From the NCBI RefSeq assembly GCF_000711225.1, contig NZ_JOMG01000002.1, forward strand, positions 632,501 through 696,500: a DNA stretch of 64,000 bases. Direction: 5' to 3'. This document shows positions 14,940 to 18,781 of this stretch, in pieces. The notes below the pieces were generated by a model. It saw nothing but the letters and a program-made list of their open reading frames with translations. It searched no databases and had not been told where the DNA came from. This DNA comes from Pelobacter seleniigenes DSM 18267. Its GTDB lineage: Bacteria; Desulfobacterota; Desulfuromonadia; Desulfuromonadales; Geopsychrobacteraceae. Position 1 is the first letter of the stretch. Each line of letters begins with the position of its first letter. The position numbers were made by a program, and so were the translations under genes.

Positions 14940-14974
14940 GCTGATAAACGGGTGCCTATGCCCCTTGTCACGAA

Positions 14975-15159
14975 TTAGTGCTCGTTTAAGCAACGCTGTA
15001 GTAAATAGTAAACTCGGGACTGTCCCCAGGGTCATCGGGGGCTGTCCCAAGAGTTTGCGAGCCATGAAACTGCAGTGGTTAGCACCGCAAAGACCTGGGA
15101 CAGCCCCCGTGCGGGGACAGTCCCGGTTTTGCTGCCATTGACTCTTAAACGAGCGCTAA
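14975..15159. repeat. 185-bp nested palindromic element (MITE/REP-like)
   Basis: Terminal inverted repeats of 16 bp (TTAGTGCTCGTTTAAG / CTTAAACGAGCGCTAA, 15 of 16 matched) enclose two further perfect pairs. GGGACTGTCCCC (15016-15027) pairs with 15113-15124. The 14-mer CGGGGGCTGTCCCA (15036-15049) pairs with 15096-15109. The whole can fold into one long stem. No ORF is present. It looks like a small non-autonomous mobile or REP-type element inserted between the TetR and GNAT genes. Confidence 0.8.
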
Positions 15160-15200
15160 TCCCCCTGTTACCTAAACCTTTGAGATAACAGCAACTGTTG

Positions 15201-15671
15201 ATGAACATTCAAATTTATCCTTATTCAACTGACCGTGCTGCTGAAATAGCTGATCTCTTCCATAGTGCCGTCCATGCCATCAATCCGGCGCTGTACTCTC
15301 CAGCAGAGCAGGAAGCCTGGGCTCCAACCCCGGTCGATTACGCTTTTTGGGAAGCGCGTCTGGCAATGAAAAAACCGCTTGTGGCCATCCACGACCAATG
15401 TGTTGCCGGATTCATCGAACTCGAACATTCCGGCCATATCGATTGTTTTTACGTTCACCCGGACTTTCAGCGCCAAGGGGTCGGCGGGCTTCTCTACAAG
15501 GCATTGGAACAGCAAGCTCAACAGCGCGCAATCAAGCTGCTGTTCGTCGAGGCCTCCCTGCTGGTAAAAGATTTTTTCCTGCAAAGGGGGTTTCAGGTGA
15601 TCAGTCAGAACCGCCTGGAGAGGAATGGAGAGGTGCTGATTAATTTCAGTATGGAAAAGAGATTGTGCTGA
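15201..15671 (+). CDS. GNAT family N-acetyltransferase
   Basis: A 156-residue protein with the GNAT acetyl-CoA binding core: IDCFYVHPDFQRQGVGGLLYKALEQQA (motif A with Q/RxxGxG/A, about residues 82-108), followed by LFVEASLLVKDFFLQRGF (motif B). Such enzymes transfer an acetyl group from acetyl-CoA to an amine; the substrate cannot be told from sequence. The ATG at 15201 is preferred over TTG at 15198. The ribosome site is weak (GAGATAA about 14 bases upstream). It is isolated between the palindromic element and the tandem repeat region. Confidence 0.85.
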   Translation: MNIQIYPYSTDRAAEIADLFHSAVHAINPALYSPAEQEAWAPTPVDYAFWEARLAMKKPLVAIHDQCVAGFIELEHSGHIDCFYVHPDFQRQGVGGLLYKALEQQAQQRAIKLLFVEASLLVKDFFLQRGFQVISQNRLERNGEVLINFSMEKRLC

Positions 15672-15707
15672 ATTTCTTGGCTGTGTATCTGGGATCGAAT
15701 CGTCGCG

Positions 15708-17262
15708 GCATGAGCCCCGCAAAAAGCAGACTTTTAGACGGGGAGACTTGTTGAGGTGGTTATTGGTGGTTCGTTTTTCTATAGGAAAAATTAGCAGCTT
15801 GATTGTTTCACCCCCATCCCGACCTTCGCAACGAATTCCATCAAATCATAAGACCAGCAGACCAGCCAATTTCGCAGCCCCTCGGTCCGCCAGTACGAGA
15901 AGCCCTGCTTCTCGTCGGGCGCATTCGACGACGGTTTGGCCAGTAACGGCCATGCTCCGTGATTAAATGCTCAGGTGACCAACCCTGCCGTACCAGCAGC
16001 GCCCAGCGAGACCTTGAATTTCCTCCGGAACGAACGCAAATCCCGAGCAATCAAAAGGCCGTTTTTTGCTTCCTTTTTATCGGCCTGGACAAAAAGGAAG
16101 GCGGCGGCGAGGCCGCGACCCCGCGGTCTTGATTTTGATTTTTAGGTGTTGGGATTTCTCTGCTGAACTGAAAAATCTCGTTGATCAACAAGCGAAACCG
16201 TCGGGTCTCGGCCCGACAGCCGACATACTTTTTTTTGATCGCAAAATAAAAGTATGCAAAAAAAACTCTTTTGATTTCTCGGGATGAGCAGCTTTGTCGG
16301 GTTTTATCCCTGAGAGGTGTAAAACCCTGCTTCGTGGCCAGGGATTGAAACGGTAATTTTTTCGCCCTTCGAAGCATTGCTATGTGGGGCATGAAGCGCC
16401 GCAGCATGAGCCCCGCAAAAAGCAGGCTTTTTGACGGGGCAACAAACAAAAGTGGTAATTGGGGCGTGTTTCGCTGTAGGTAAAATTGGCAGGTCAATTG
16501 TTTCACCCCCATCCCGACCTTCCCCCATCAGAGGGGGAAGGAGCAACGAATTCCATCAAACCATAAGACCAGCAGATCAACCAATTTCGCAGCCCCTCGG
16601 TCCGCCAGTACGAGAAGCCCAGCTTCTCGTCGGGCGCATTCGACGACGGTTTGGCCAGTAACGGCCATGCTCCGTGATTAAATGCTCAGGTGACCAACCC
16701 TGCCTTACCAGCAGCGCCCAGCGCAACCCTGAATTTCCTCCGGAACGAACGCCAATCCCGAGCAATCAAAAGGCCGTTTTTTGCTTCCTTTTTGTCGGCC
16801 TGGACAAAAAGAAAGGCGGCGGCGGGGCCGCGACCCCGCGGTCTTGATTTTGATTTTTAGGTATTGGGATTTTTCTGCTGAACTGAAAGGGCTCGTTGAT
16901 CAACAAGCGACACTGTCGGGTCTCGGCCCGACAGTCGACATACTTTTTTTTGATCGCAAAATAAAAGTATGCAAAAAAAACTCTTTTGATTTCTCGAGAT
17001 GAGCAGCCCTGTTGGCTGTTATCGGCGGGCTGTGTGGGATTCAGCTCCGTGGCCAGGGCTTGAGACGGTGACTTTTTTCGGCCTTCTAAGCATGGCTATG
17101 TGGGTCATGAAGCGTCGTAGCATGAGCCCCGCAAAAAGTAGACTTTTTGACGGGCCAACAAACAAAAGTGGTGATCAAGGCATGTTTCGCTGTAGGTAAA
17201 ATTGGCAGCTCAATTGTTTCACCCCCATCCCGACCTTCCCCCATCAGAGGGGGAAGGAGCGA
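15708..17262. repeat. tandem direct repeat (~0.7 kb unit, ~2.2 copies), non-coding and hairpin-rich
   Basis: Copy A runs from 15708 to 16403, copy B from 16404 to 17119, and a partial copy C from 17120 to about 17262. Periods are 696 and 716 bp; the 20-bp difference is explained mainly by a small stem-loop (CTTCCCCC/GAGGGGGAAG) present in B and C but not A. Each full copy contains hairpins at equivalent positions. Examples are ACGAGAAGC/GCTTCTCGT (15895-15915; 16610-16630), TTCCTTTTT-TC/GACAAAAA (16070-16099; 16785-16814), a GTCGGG/CCCGAC stem (16197-16220; 16912-16935) and CATACTTTT/AAAAGTATG (16224-16256). No frame encodes a convincing protein. The region between 15672 and 17360 holds nothing else recognisable. 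Confidence 0.85.
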
Positions 17263-17360
17263 AGTATTTTCTAACAGAACAGTTCACTTTTAAGAAATGT
17301 TCAGTTTAAAAACATAGCACTTTACTTGAACATCCGCCGGAATCGTCCAACTCCCCTGCA

Positions 17361-17585
17361 TCAGTAACCATGATTAATCACGCAATAAGGACAGTCCGCC
17401 TCATGCTCCATACAGTCGTTAAAAAGCAGCAACTCATCATTGTCATGCTTCATCTGTTGGGCATAGGCACGACAATAGGCTTCATGATCATGATGACTCC
17501 ATTCCCGGGACTCCTGCTGCATGACCGGACCGTAGCAACCGACCAGCGCCAGCATCAGGGAAAAACTTGCCAGCAACTTTTTCAT
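17361..17585 (-). CDS. small hypothetical lipoprotein
   Basis: A 74-residue product with a lipoprotein signal (KKLLASFSLMLALVGC, Cys17). The mature part is rich in His, Glu and Asp and has four further Cys, two of them as CPYC near the C-terminus. A good ribosome site (GGAGTAAGAGGG) abuts the start region. No homologue is recognised. The Cys/His content would suit metal binding or a disulfide-stabilised fold, which is speculative. The gene stands alone between the tandem repeats and the DraG-like gene. Confidence 0.65.
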   Translation of the reverse strand: MKKLLASFSLMLALVGCYGPVMQQESREWSHHDHEAYCRAYAQQMKHDNDELLLFNDCMEHEADCPYCVINHGY

Positions 17586-17707: not shown

Positions 17708-18781
17708 TTAGAGCTGTTGGGCCAGGCGGCGGGCCAAGTCCAACAGTTCAGCGGAACCGTCCAGGCCGTCGATGAACCGTTGGGGAATACCGGTCAGACC
17801 GCATTGTGCTCCGACCAGGGCCCCGGTGAGCATGGCCCGGGCCTGGTTTTGCCCGCCACCGTTCACAGCATGCAGCACTGCGGCCTCAAAATCGTCCGCA
17901 AAGCGTGCCGCCAGATAGTAAGCGGCCGGCAGCTGATGATAAATGGCGCAGGGCATGCCATAGACGAGGGACACCTTCCAGGCCGGTTCGATACGAATCT
18001 CCGGGTCAATGGCGGCGGTGGCCATGGCCGCCGGCGAAAGCAAAGCATCGGGCGAGGCGAATCGGCCCACCCGCGGCGGATCGGGATCGCCAGGTTTGGG
18101 CGGTTGCAGATCGTCGCTGGTGACGGCATGGAAAGGCAGTTCCCCGCTCTTGACCAAACGCATCAGTTTTCCTGAAATATCCGGAGTCAACCCTTCGCCC
18201 TGCACCAGCTGGCCCAGCACAGCCCCAAAAGCGACAGTTAACGAGACGACGGTCTCATCGGTCTGGGTCAGAACGGTATTGGCGCCGATGGCTCGCGCCA
18301 GCTGACGTGGGTCAGCAGCATAGCGAACCGCAATGGCCAGGGTTCGCTCAATCGCTTCCGTGGTATCGGCATGCCCGCCGGTCTGCGACCAGGGCAGGCC
18401 TTGTTTGACCCGGCGGCGCCAGGCTTCCCGAATCGACTGGCTGGTATAGCCGCCCGGCCCGTTGACCGGGGTGCCGTCAAGTTGCGGAAACAGGTCTTCG
18501 TCCAGGCGGCGACAAAAATCCGCTTCATCATATTCGCCACAATCGACCAGAGACTGCACCATCATCCGCAGCAGATAACCGGCCTGGGACAGCTGGCCGG
18601 CTTTACAACCGGCATGATAACGGTGCGGTTGGGGGTCGGTATAGTCGCTGATCCAGGGACCATAATCTTTGCGCAGTTGCTCCAAGTCGTAATACCAATG
18701 CGGTCCAAGCGCCAGGGCATCACCGATAAAAGCACCAAGAATTGTTCCCTGAGCTCTATTTTCGAGGTCTTTCGTGTTCAT
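17708..18781 (-). CDS. ADP-ribosylglycohydrolase (DraG) family protein with lost metal motifs
   Basis: A 357-residue protein with the overall DraG/ARH pattern: GAFIGDALALGPHW at residues ~16-29 and a C-terminal AVNGGG...LTGALVGAQCG. The metal-binding signatures are not conserved. The family T-D-D-T after the first Gly-rich segment is replaced by S-Q-A-G (residues 65-68), and the G-G-D-x-D-T motif near the end by GGGQNQ (308-313). Active family members cleave ADP-ribose from proteins using two Mg/Mn ions held by these residues. This copy is therefore probably inactive as a hydrolase or works differently. It is 13 bp downstream of the C39-like peptidase gene on the same strand. Confidence 0.82.
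   Translation of the reverse strand: MNTKDLENRAQGTILGAFIGDALALGPHWYYDLEQLRKDYGPWISDYTDPQPHRYHAGCKAGQLSQAGYLLRMMVQSLVDCGEYDEADFCRRLDEDLFPQLDGTPVNGPGGYTSQSIREAWRRRVKQGLPWSQTGGHADTTEAIERTLAIAVRYAADPRQLARAIGANTVLTQTDETVVSLTVAFGAVLGQLVQGEGLTPDISGKLMRLVKSGELPFHAVTSDDLQPPKPGDPDPPRVGRFASPDALLSPAAMATAAIDPEIRIEPAWKVSLVYGMPCAIYHQLPAAYYLAARFADDFEAAVLHAVNGGGQNQARAMLTGALVGAQCGLTGIPQRFIDGLDGSAELLDLARRLAQQL

Follow-up and report, generated by a model that had tools for sequence, protein, structure and literature searches.

A dispersed, paired repeat in Pelobacter seleniigenes with a covarying pseudoknot core predicted to hold a triple helix

A hairpin-rich tandem repeat of about 0.7 kb lies in a 64,000-nt stretch of the Pelobacter seleniigenes DSM 18267 genome (contig NZ_JOMG01000002.1, positions 632,501 to 696,500; this whole stretch is referred to as the window) and raises the question of whether it specifies a structured RNA, and if so on which strand. 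A preliminary description had recognized two full copies and a partial third with hairpins at matching places, and had tentatively suggested a minus-strand RNA under structural constraint. We find the copies as described: full copies B (15828-16542) and C (16543-17258) stand in tandem, 715 nt apart and 96% identical across their first 300 nt, and a partial upstream copy (15697-15827) comprises the tail of the unit only, without a core, its BoxC-like hairpin being truncated (15809-15827). The hairpins, too, were found at the positions given for them. The repeat is flanked by a GNAT-like gene (15198-15671, plus strand) and an ADP-ribosylglycohydrolase-like gene (17708-18781, minus strand), both named from their translations. 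Further upstream, between TetR-like and GNAT-like genes, nested inverted repeats with arms of 17, 21 and 24 nt and GGGACTGTCCC-like blocks occupy 14974-15160.

Each 715-nt unit contains a core of approximately 80 nt twice, in opposite orientations, a plus-strand core being followed 59 nt further on by a minus-strand core, which gives four cores in the window. Searched with our core model R1, these are core 1 (16053-16132, plus, 85.5 bits), core 2 (16192-16272, minus, 85.0 bits), core 3 (16768-16847, plus, 92.1 bits) and core 4 (16907-16987, minus, 77.5 bits); the next best R1 matches in the window have an E value of 0.9. In core 1, the 5' strand of stem S1 (AGGCCG, 16056-16061) is followed by loop L1 (TTTTTT, 16062-16067) and by hairpin S2, whose 5' arm starts at 16069 and whose 3' arm ends at 16100, with the 3' strand of S1 (CGGCCT) at 16081-16086. 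A second pseudoknot follows, formed of SA (16101-16104/16113-16116) and SB (16107-16112/16119-16124). Core 3 has the same parts on the same strand (S1 16771-16776/16796-16801, L1 16777-16782, S2 16784-16815, second pseudoknot from 16816). The T-loop, S2 and second pseudoknot are present in core 2, and no clear S1 was seen by eye in the subtype to which cores 2 and 4 belong. Upstream of core 1 lies an arm (15866-16052, plus, with a hairpin at 15895-15915) that is conserved among copies in the own genome, and its counterpart upstream of core 3 spans 16581-16767 (plus, hairpin 16610-16630). A hairpin repeat resembling by eye the purine-motif BoxC/TM repeats of PMC4666352 lies between the units (16504-16541) and again at 17220-17257; short matches to it are scattered over the own genome and its relatives. 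On balance, we read the tandem repeat as a small tandem cluster of an element that is otherwise dispersed and occurs in pairs, the core being its functional portion.

We screened an alignment of 63 sequences from the own genome and relatives (A1) for covarying columns, without a preset structure. The screen yielded hairpin S2, the two overlapping 3' stems SA and SB, and correlations between loop and stem. Two columns ahead of the hairpin correlate with both sides of the stem, T going with T-A and C with C-G, as expected of a third strand parallel to the purine strand. Over 22 named pairs of A1, 96.6% of cells were paired, compared to 74.6% after shuffling, and 266 cells were double-changed, compared to 82.7; when the partner was slid by 1-3 columns, pairing dropped to 45-56%. 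A covariation check on more copies, as the preliminary description had called for, put the structure far above chance: pairing exceeded both the shuffled and the slid-partner background, and double changes exceeded the shuffled one. These shuffles ignore relatedness, which the slid-partner and register controls take into account, and the slid-partner controls favor a structure derived from the same sequences. In alignment A4, S2 was 98.0% paired with 10 of 12 pairs double-changed, and SB was 99.5% paired with 4 of 6 double-changed.

Stem S1 joins the hairpin loop to the segment 5' of L1, so that the elements succeed one another as S1-L1-S2-S1'-S2', as in classical H-type pseudoknots with a triplex loop. 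Runs of at least four Watson-Crick pairs in S1 were present in 80% of 76, 65% of 20, 87% of 117 and 43% of 56 distinct cores in four sets, against 31%, 19%, 34% and 13% in shuffled controls; in no set did any of 300 shuffles come up to the real figure, and the H-type arrangement was found in all four sets taken as groups. SA was fully paired in 77% of 151 parsed sequences compared to 20% (at most 30%) after shuffling, its outer pairs occurring as GCGG/CCGC, TCGG/CCGA, GCGC/GCGC, TCGC/GCGA, GCGT/ACGC and CCGC/GCGG; the parse took 151 of 263 rows, the other 112 having SB below 5/6 or being merged duplicates. On the columns of A4, SA was 56.1% paired over few cells with letters, and since most of these columns are gaps, SA rests on A1 and the sequence parse. 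Because SA and SB overlap, they form either a second pseudoknot or alternatives; together they would leave a tight 2-nt loop over SA, and alternatives they may be. By eye, SA and SB are absent from some of the far matches. Collectively, covariation shows a core predicted to fold into an H-type pseudoknot with a mirroring pyrimidine loop and with overlapping stems SA and SB 3' of the pseudoknot, and we hold this structure with great confidence.

The pyrimidine loop L1 mirrors the purine strand of S2, such that each loop base would form a T.A-T or C.G-C triple. The count on which we rely comprises 140 distinct rows, after removal of every row that matched a loop-fixing search pattern (1 from A1, 54 from A3 and 22 from A4). 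Here 82 of 87 stem G's stand opposite a loop C and 665 of 679 stem A's opposite a T; conversely, 82 of 84 loop C's stand opposite a G. At all other registers from -4 to +4, C was opposite G in only 0-36 of 40-235 cells. A count over 158 distinct rows (58 from A1, 21 from A3, 79 from A4), in which pattern-matching rows were removed from A3 only, gave 100 of 105 G's opposite C and 755 of 769 A's opposite T; shuffling the loops among these rows gave a mean of 0.21 and a maximum of 0.36. In rows with two C's in the loop (L125, L352), both places were matched. The loop-fixing pattern, used for a scan of one genome per species, sets L1 and part of S2 and leaves S1, the lower stem, SA and SB free, and the R1 model was trained on T-rich L1. 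Four stem-only patterns that leave the loop free were run on viral contigs: the predicted loop was found in 8/9, 0/1, 19/31 and 9/20 distinct hits with a stem extension of at least 3 bp, in 0/0, 0/4, 8/17 and 1/10 with an extension of 2, and in 1/2, 0/7, 2/27 and 4/74 with an extension of 0-1. A reversed-sequence control stood at 396 versus 8, the loci used having been selected previously. Like intrastrand triplex repeats (PIT/TM), the core also carries three consecutive triplex-capable stretches on one strand. To judge from these alignments, the mirror register is triple-helix covariation. One viral contig (L352) holds several core-like paralogs, whose loops with one or two C's are matched in the stem.

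We then asked which strand bears the constraint. Read in core orientation, the four lower-stem pairs left free in 112 proteobacterial cores show 33 G-T against 3 A-C, a single T-G position contributing 25 of the G-T cases, and over S2 plus SB the ratios are 24:9 (A1), 39:11 (A3) and 12:6 (A4). This excess indicates that the constrained strand follows the core and is not the minus strand throughout; wobble pairing in the alignments thus shows a constraint borne by one strand, that of core orientation. RNA is the reading we favor as the simplest for this asymmetry, not a proven one, and the covariation and strand bias are equally compatible with folding of single-stranded DNA. We think it more likely than not that the core acts as RNA rather than as single-stranded DNA.

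Of the earlier proposal, the structural constraint is strongly supported by covariation, and the assignment to the minus strand did not hold. That assignment had been drawn from four differences between stems of the two copies, at 16079/16794 (A/G), 16097/16812 (G/A), 16199/16914 (C/T) and 16220/16935 (C/T). All four exist, and each gives A-C on the plus strand and G-T on the minus strand in one copy. The two stems concerned sit in core copies of opposite orientation, however, and in core orientation the differences split into two G-U (minus cores) and two A-C (plus cores). A fifth difference that had been overlooked (16110/16825, A/G, in a second stem of the plus core) is A-C and makes the ratio 2:3, so the four-of-four signal within the window looks like a coincidence. 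For the same reason, an RNA from the minus strand only was rejected. A minus-strand promoter had been expected near 17300; a scan of 15600-17400 returned none on that strand (1.3 expected) and a single weak site on the plus strand.

Terminator-like sites numbered 11 in 15600-17400 against 2.8 expected, by consensus match only. The two longest (10 pairs) are found at cores 1 and 3, in sense orientation and at the junction of SB with a T-rich tail: a hairpin with tail at 16108-16141 (plus), overlapping SB of core 1, and its core 3 counterpart at 16823-16856 (plus), both consensus matches only. In copies from Paraburkholderia and Methylomonas, no T-rich tail was seen by eye after SB, and termination may therefore be a role of some copies only. 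In six viral contigs (L369, L370, L402, L422, L458, L478), the core comes, by eye, directly after a terminator-like hairpin, which might tie it to transcript ends. As for neighboring genes, the orientations of the upstream and downstream gene relative to the core at proteobacterial loci were same/same in 32 cases, same/opposite in 25, opposite/opposite in 30 and opposite/same in 11, the last class (divergent genes) being the sole one that seems depleted by crude gene calls. The gene caller was judged crude because cores fell inside called ORFs, many of them probably spurious (29 proteobacterial, 25 in the window's order, 6 far and 4 viral). A role for the core as a 3'-UTR in sense to the upstream gene was considered and rejected, orientation to flanking genes being nearly random by these calls.

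The core is not confined to this locus. In the own genome the core model matches at 33 places and BLAST aligns parts of the unit at 46; BLAST with the unit matched parts in 31 of 41 genomes, the own genome included, and under strict filters the model matched 21 genomes in a phylum sample of 297, weaker phylum matches often lacking SA and SB by eye. Relatives of the core occur in the window's phylum, in Beta- and Gammaproteobacteria and in viral contigs. A pattern scan of a one-genome-per-species collection (84,980 genomes) matched at least 120 stretches; the 80 of these that were listed are mostly from Beta- and Gammaproteobacteria, with two from Desulfobacterota, four from Selenomonadales/Selenomonas and one Clostridia record. 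Core model matches range from 2 to at least 145 per genome in 13 genomes with named loci, no more than 150 candidates having been scored. On plasmids, at least 330 places (an undercount) were found in 21 Burkholderiaceae plasmid records, two of which, when inspected, had almost no annotation; plasmid BLAST with the window's unit gave no match. Other genomes contain arrays that repeat about every 500 or 640 nt (L109, L113).

Rfam gave no match at the window's cores at gathering score, TwoAYGGAY (RF01731) and Bp1_684 (RF02421) included, and no family spans the whole core in the loci scanned. Two GGA hairpins precede cores in some Gammaproteobacteria. There, TwoAYGGAY, which belongs to one Rfam clan with RsmW (RF02809), lies just upstream of some cores: it reaches gathering score upstream of the cores in both arms of L167 and in L203, where the match ends before the core, and falls just below threshold in L131 (42.8 of 43 bits). 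The matches in L167 and L131 are partial, covering model positions 45-113 (L167) and 46-112 (L131) of 168; in L130 a gathering-score match lies away from the core, and RsmW in L173 is far under threshold. Members of this clan bind CsrA-type proteins. Bp1_684 gave one gathering-score match among 26 different loci scanned, in Paraburkholderia (L135). Starting within the S2 3' arm, on the same strand, the match extends downstream, so that the core's 3' side is overlapped in core sense by this Burkholderia sRNA family; RF02421 was rejected as the whole answer, since only the downstream part is covered. Detection of an sRNA of this family by RT-PCR is described in one report (PMC3521395), where oligo-dT priming makes the support weak.

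Close neighbors among the cores form pairs. In the own genome nine are convergent (gaps of 54-61 nt), eight divergent (gaps of 267-513 nt) and one tandem. In three Methylomonas genomes and one Methylococcaceae genome, 30 of 38 neighbors within 2.5 kb are divergent, that is outward-facing, 2 are convergent and 6 tandem, counted from 120 of 133 matches in genomes that had been reached via pattern hits, one of which (L182) lies in a segment analyzed here (L517). The Methylomonas segments analyzed were hand-picked from the matches listed, mostly for larger gaps, and their divergent pairs mostly enclose one or two ORFs of their own, some of them short (L526, L534); one Methylococcaceae pair (L533) has only about 440 nt between cores. 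Pfam matched six of ten such cargo proteins: Mrr_cat plus Peptidase_M78, DUF1152, HNH, DUF2971, SLFN_AlbA_2 and NYN. PADLOC matched four of ten, nine of which are shared with the Pfam set: the DUF2971 protein as PDC-S31 (9e-42), the Mrr/M78 protein as CapP (3.6e-19), and, weakly, the HNH protein and that of L521. Judged by these domain matches, a few cargo proteins are likely to be defense-flavored, the others only possibly so. In Atopomonas hussainii, a 391-aa transposase-like ORF (IS481-like by eye) lies between divergent cores (L188, 4982-6157).

Comparison between species indicates that the enclosed segments differ where the arms are shared. Between M. fluvii (L515) and Methylomonas sp. 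SURF-1 (L524), three parts align collinearly: the left flank (148 nt, 87%), the arms (337 and 150 nt, 87%), and the end of the right arm together with the adjoining flank (477 nt, 84%). No alignment was obtained for the stretch enclosed by the arms, which contains one ORF running in from the arm in the former and two others, of 187 and 170 aa, in the latter. Upstream of ureA in a second comparison (L519 and L525), the right arm and gene match (650 nt, 88%) and the ORFs between the arms differ; the outer left flank did not align. The Methylomonas urease genes in L525 (ureC-like and ureA-like by eye) are surrounded by several cores. At one Paraburkholderia site, a pair of about 620 nt is present in six records and absent from P. 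phymatum, its inner segment is by eye inverted between two groups, and one core is interrupted by an IS5-family transposase insertion. Tandem GCGCTGGCATCCGCG-type repeats just outside the pair (L487, L488) vary in number among strains.

Multiple copies and inverted pairs are also what would be expected of a DNA-level mobile element, the folded strand being the transposon end for a Y1 (RAYT-like) or other transposase and the pairs being REPIN-like or MITE-like. This alternative, which we regard as rather unlikely, accommodates the empty orthologous site in P. phymatum (gain elsewhere or loss there) and a Y1_Tnp gene that is cargo between outward cores at one locus common to two Methylomonas genomes (L173, L527). 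Against it, none of 30 Y1_Tnp loci (of more than 150 matches in the window's order and own genome) had a core nearby, and Y1_Tnp matches are absent from genomes in which the core model matches 42, 11 and 7 times; a RAYT partner was rejected on these grounds except in Methylomonas, whose one shared locus fits. No clear target-site duplication was seen by eye in 15 Methylomonas pairs out of 18, the ends, defined in our own way, being unsettable in the other 3. Y1 elements make no target-site duplications, and we know of no triplex pseudoknot from Y1 ends.

A DNA repeat that merely folds into an intrastrand triplex (PIT/TM type), stalls replication and raises genome instability, its pseudoknot pairs being incidental, appears improbable. 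Such potential single-strand triplexes, the pyrimidine motif included, are abundant in bacteria (PMC4666352), and inner segments do invert or differ between species. A triplex alone, however, needs none of the stems S1, SA and SB, which covary two-sidedly, and the wobble is strand-specific. That the cores are related hairpin copies without constraint, by chance or shared ancestry, can be dismissed: many rows are related and the shuffles ignore this, but slid-partner controls drop to background, the mirror register holds at 0.94-0.98 and fails one step off, and the pattern reappears, with C at several different places, in more than one phylum and in viral contigs.

If the core acts as RNA, a transcript passing it in the sense direction would acquire a compact knot, possibly resistant to nuclease or polymerase. 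Outward pairs would then act as borders at which transcripts coming out of the enclosed segment are terminated, protected or insulated, a border or 3'-end role that we consider plausible, if a little short of an even chance. Arms shared by many copies would be homologous sites at which ordinary recombination could invert central segments and swap cargo; for the arms as such a recombination platform, we see the chances as evenly balanced. More tentative is the suggestion that these pairs make up a categorically new class, namely gene cassettes that can be exchanged and whose borders are RNA triple-helix pseudoknots, paired and facing outward.

H-type pseudoknots with a major-groove triplex are found in telomerase RNA and in the SAM-II and preQ1-II riboswitches, which share with the core the topology and a U-rich L1 in the deep groove of S2. 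Those are single RNA genes or riboswitches, whereas the core is a dispersed, paired repeat with tens to more than 100 copies per genome. REP/REPIN elements with RAYT, bcr1 and BOX are multi-copy intergenic hairpin elements with inverted pairs; they differ from the core in structure and size, and the core was not tied to RAYT genes where tested. In pdif modules, exchangeable genes lie between paired Xer sites; the core pairs may likewise bracket exchangeable genes, with structured arms of about 300 nt in place of Xer sites.

Among published elements, the intrastrand triplex repeat comes closest. Holder et al. (2015; PMC4666352) surveyed 5246 genomes and plasmids for triplex motifs of every class, with counts, and investigated a G/C purine motif; the word pseudoknot is absent from the main text, and their database may contain these core sequences. 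Like the core, PIT/TM repeats are dispersed and able to fold a triplex within one strand (PMC4666352), but the motif characterized there is G/C-rich purine, whereas the core has a pyrimidine motif inside an H-type pseudoknot and a second pseudoknot 3' of it. The cores, with their T/A-rich pyrimidine motif, do not by eye follow the TMECO/BoxC pattern CCCTCNCCC-N3-6-GGGNGAGGG-N3-GGGNGAGGG; the purine-motif repeat that does resemble BoxC (TMECO) by eye lies elsewhere within the 715-nt unit. Genome papers on Geobacter and Pelobacter report multicopy sequences, and the core element may be among them. No description of it was found by title or opening of the abstract in the open-access literature searched.

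Few natural triple helices are supported by covariation, and to our knowledge no dispersed bacterial family of them is known. Through its many natural variants with exchanged single triples and pseudoknot pairs, the core family gives a direct way to test whether triplexes form in cells. If the cassette reading is true, any transcript leaving a cassette, in whichever direction, would end in a knot, and cargo such as defense-like genes and transposases could be swapped through the shared arms at fixed chromosomal sites, in many Proteobacteria and in other groups. Should the pairs indeed border exchangeable genes, they would provide a new way to find mobile cargo, defense genes for example.
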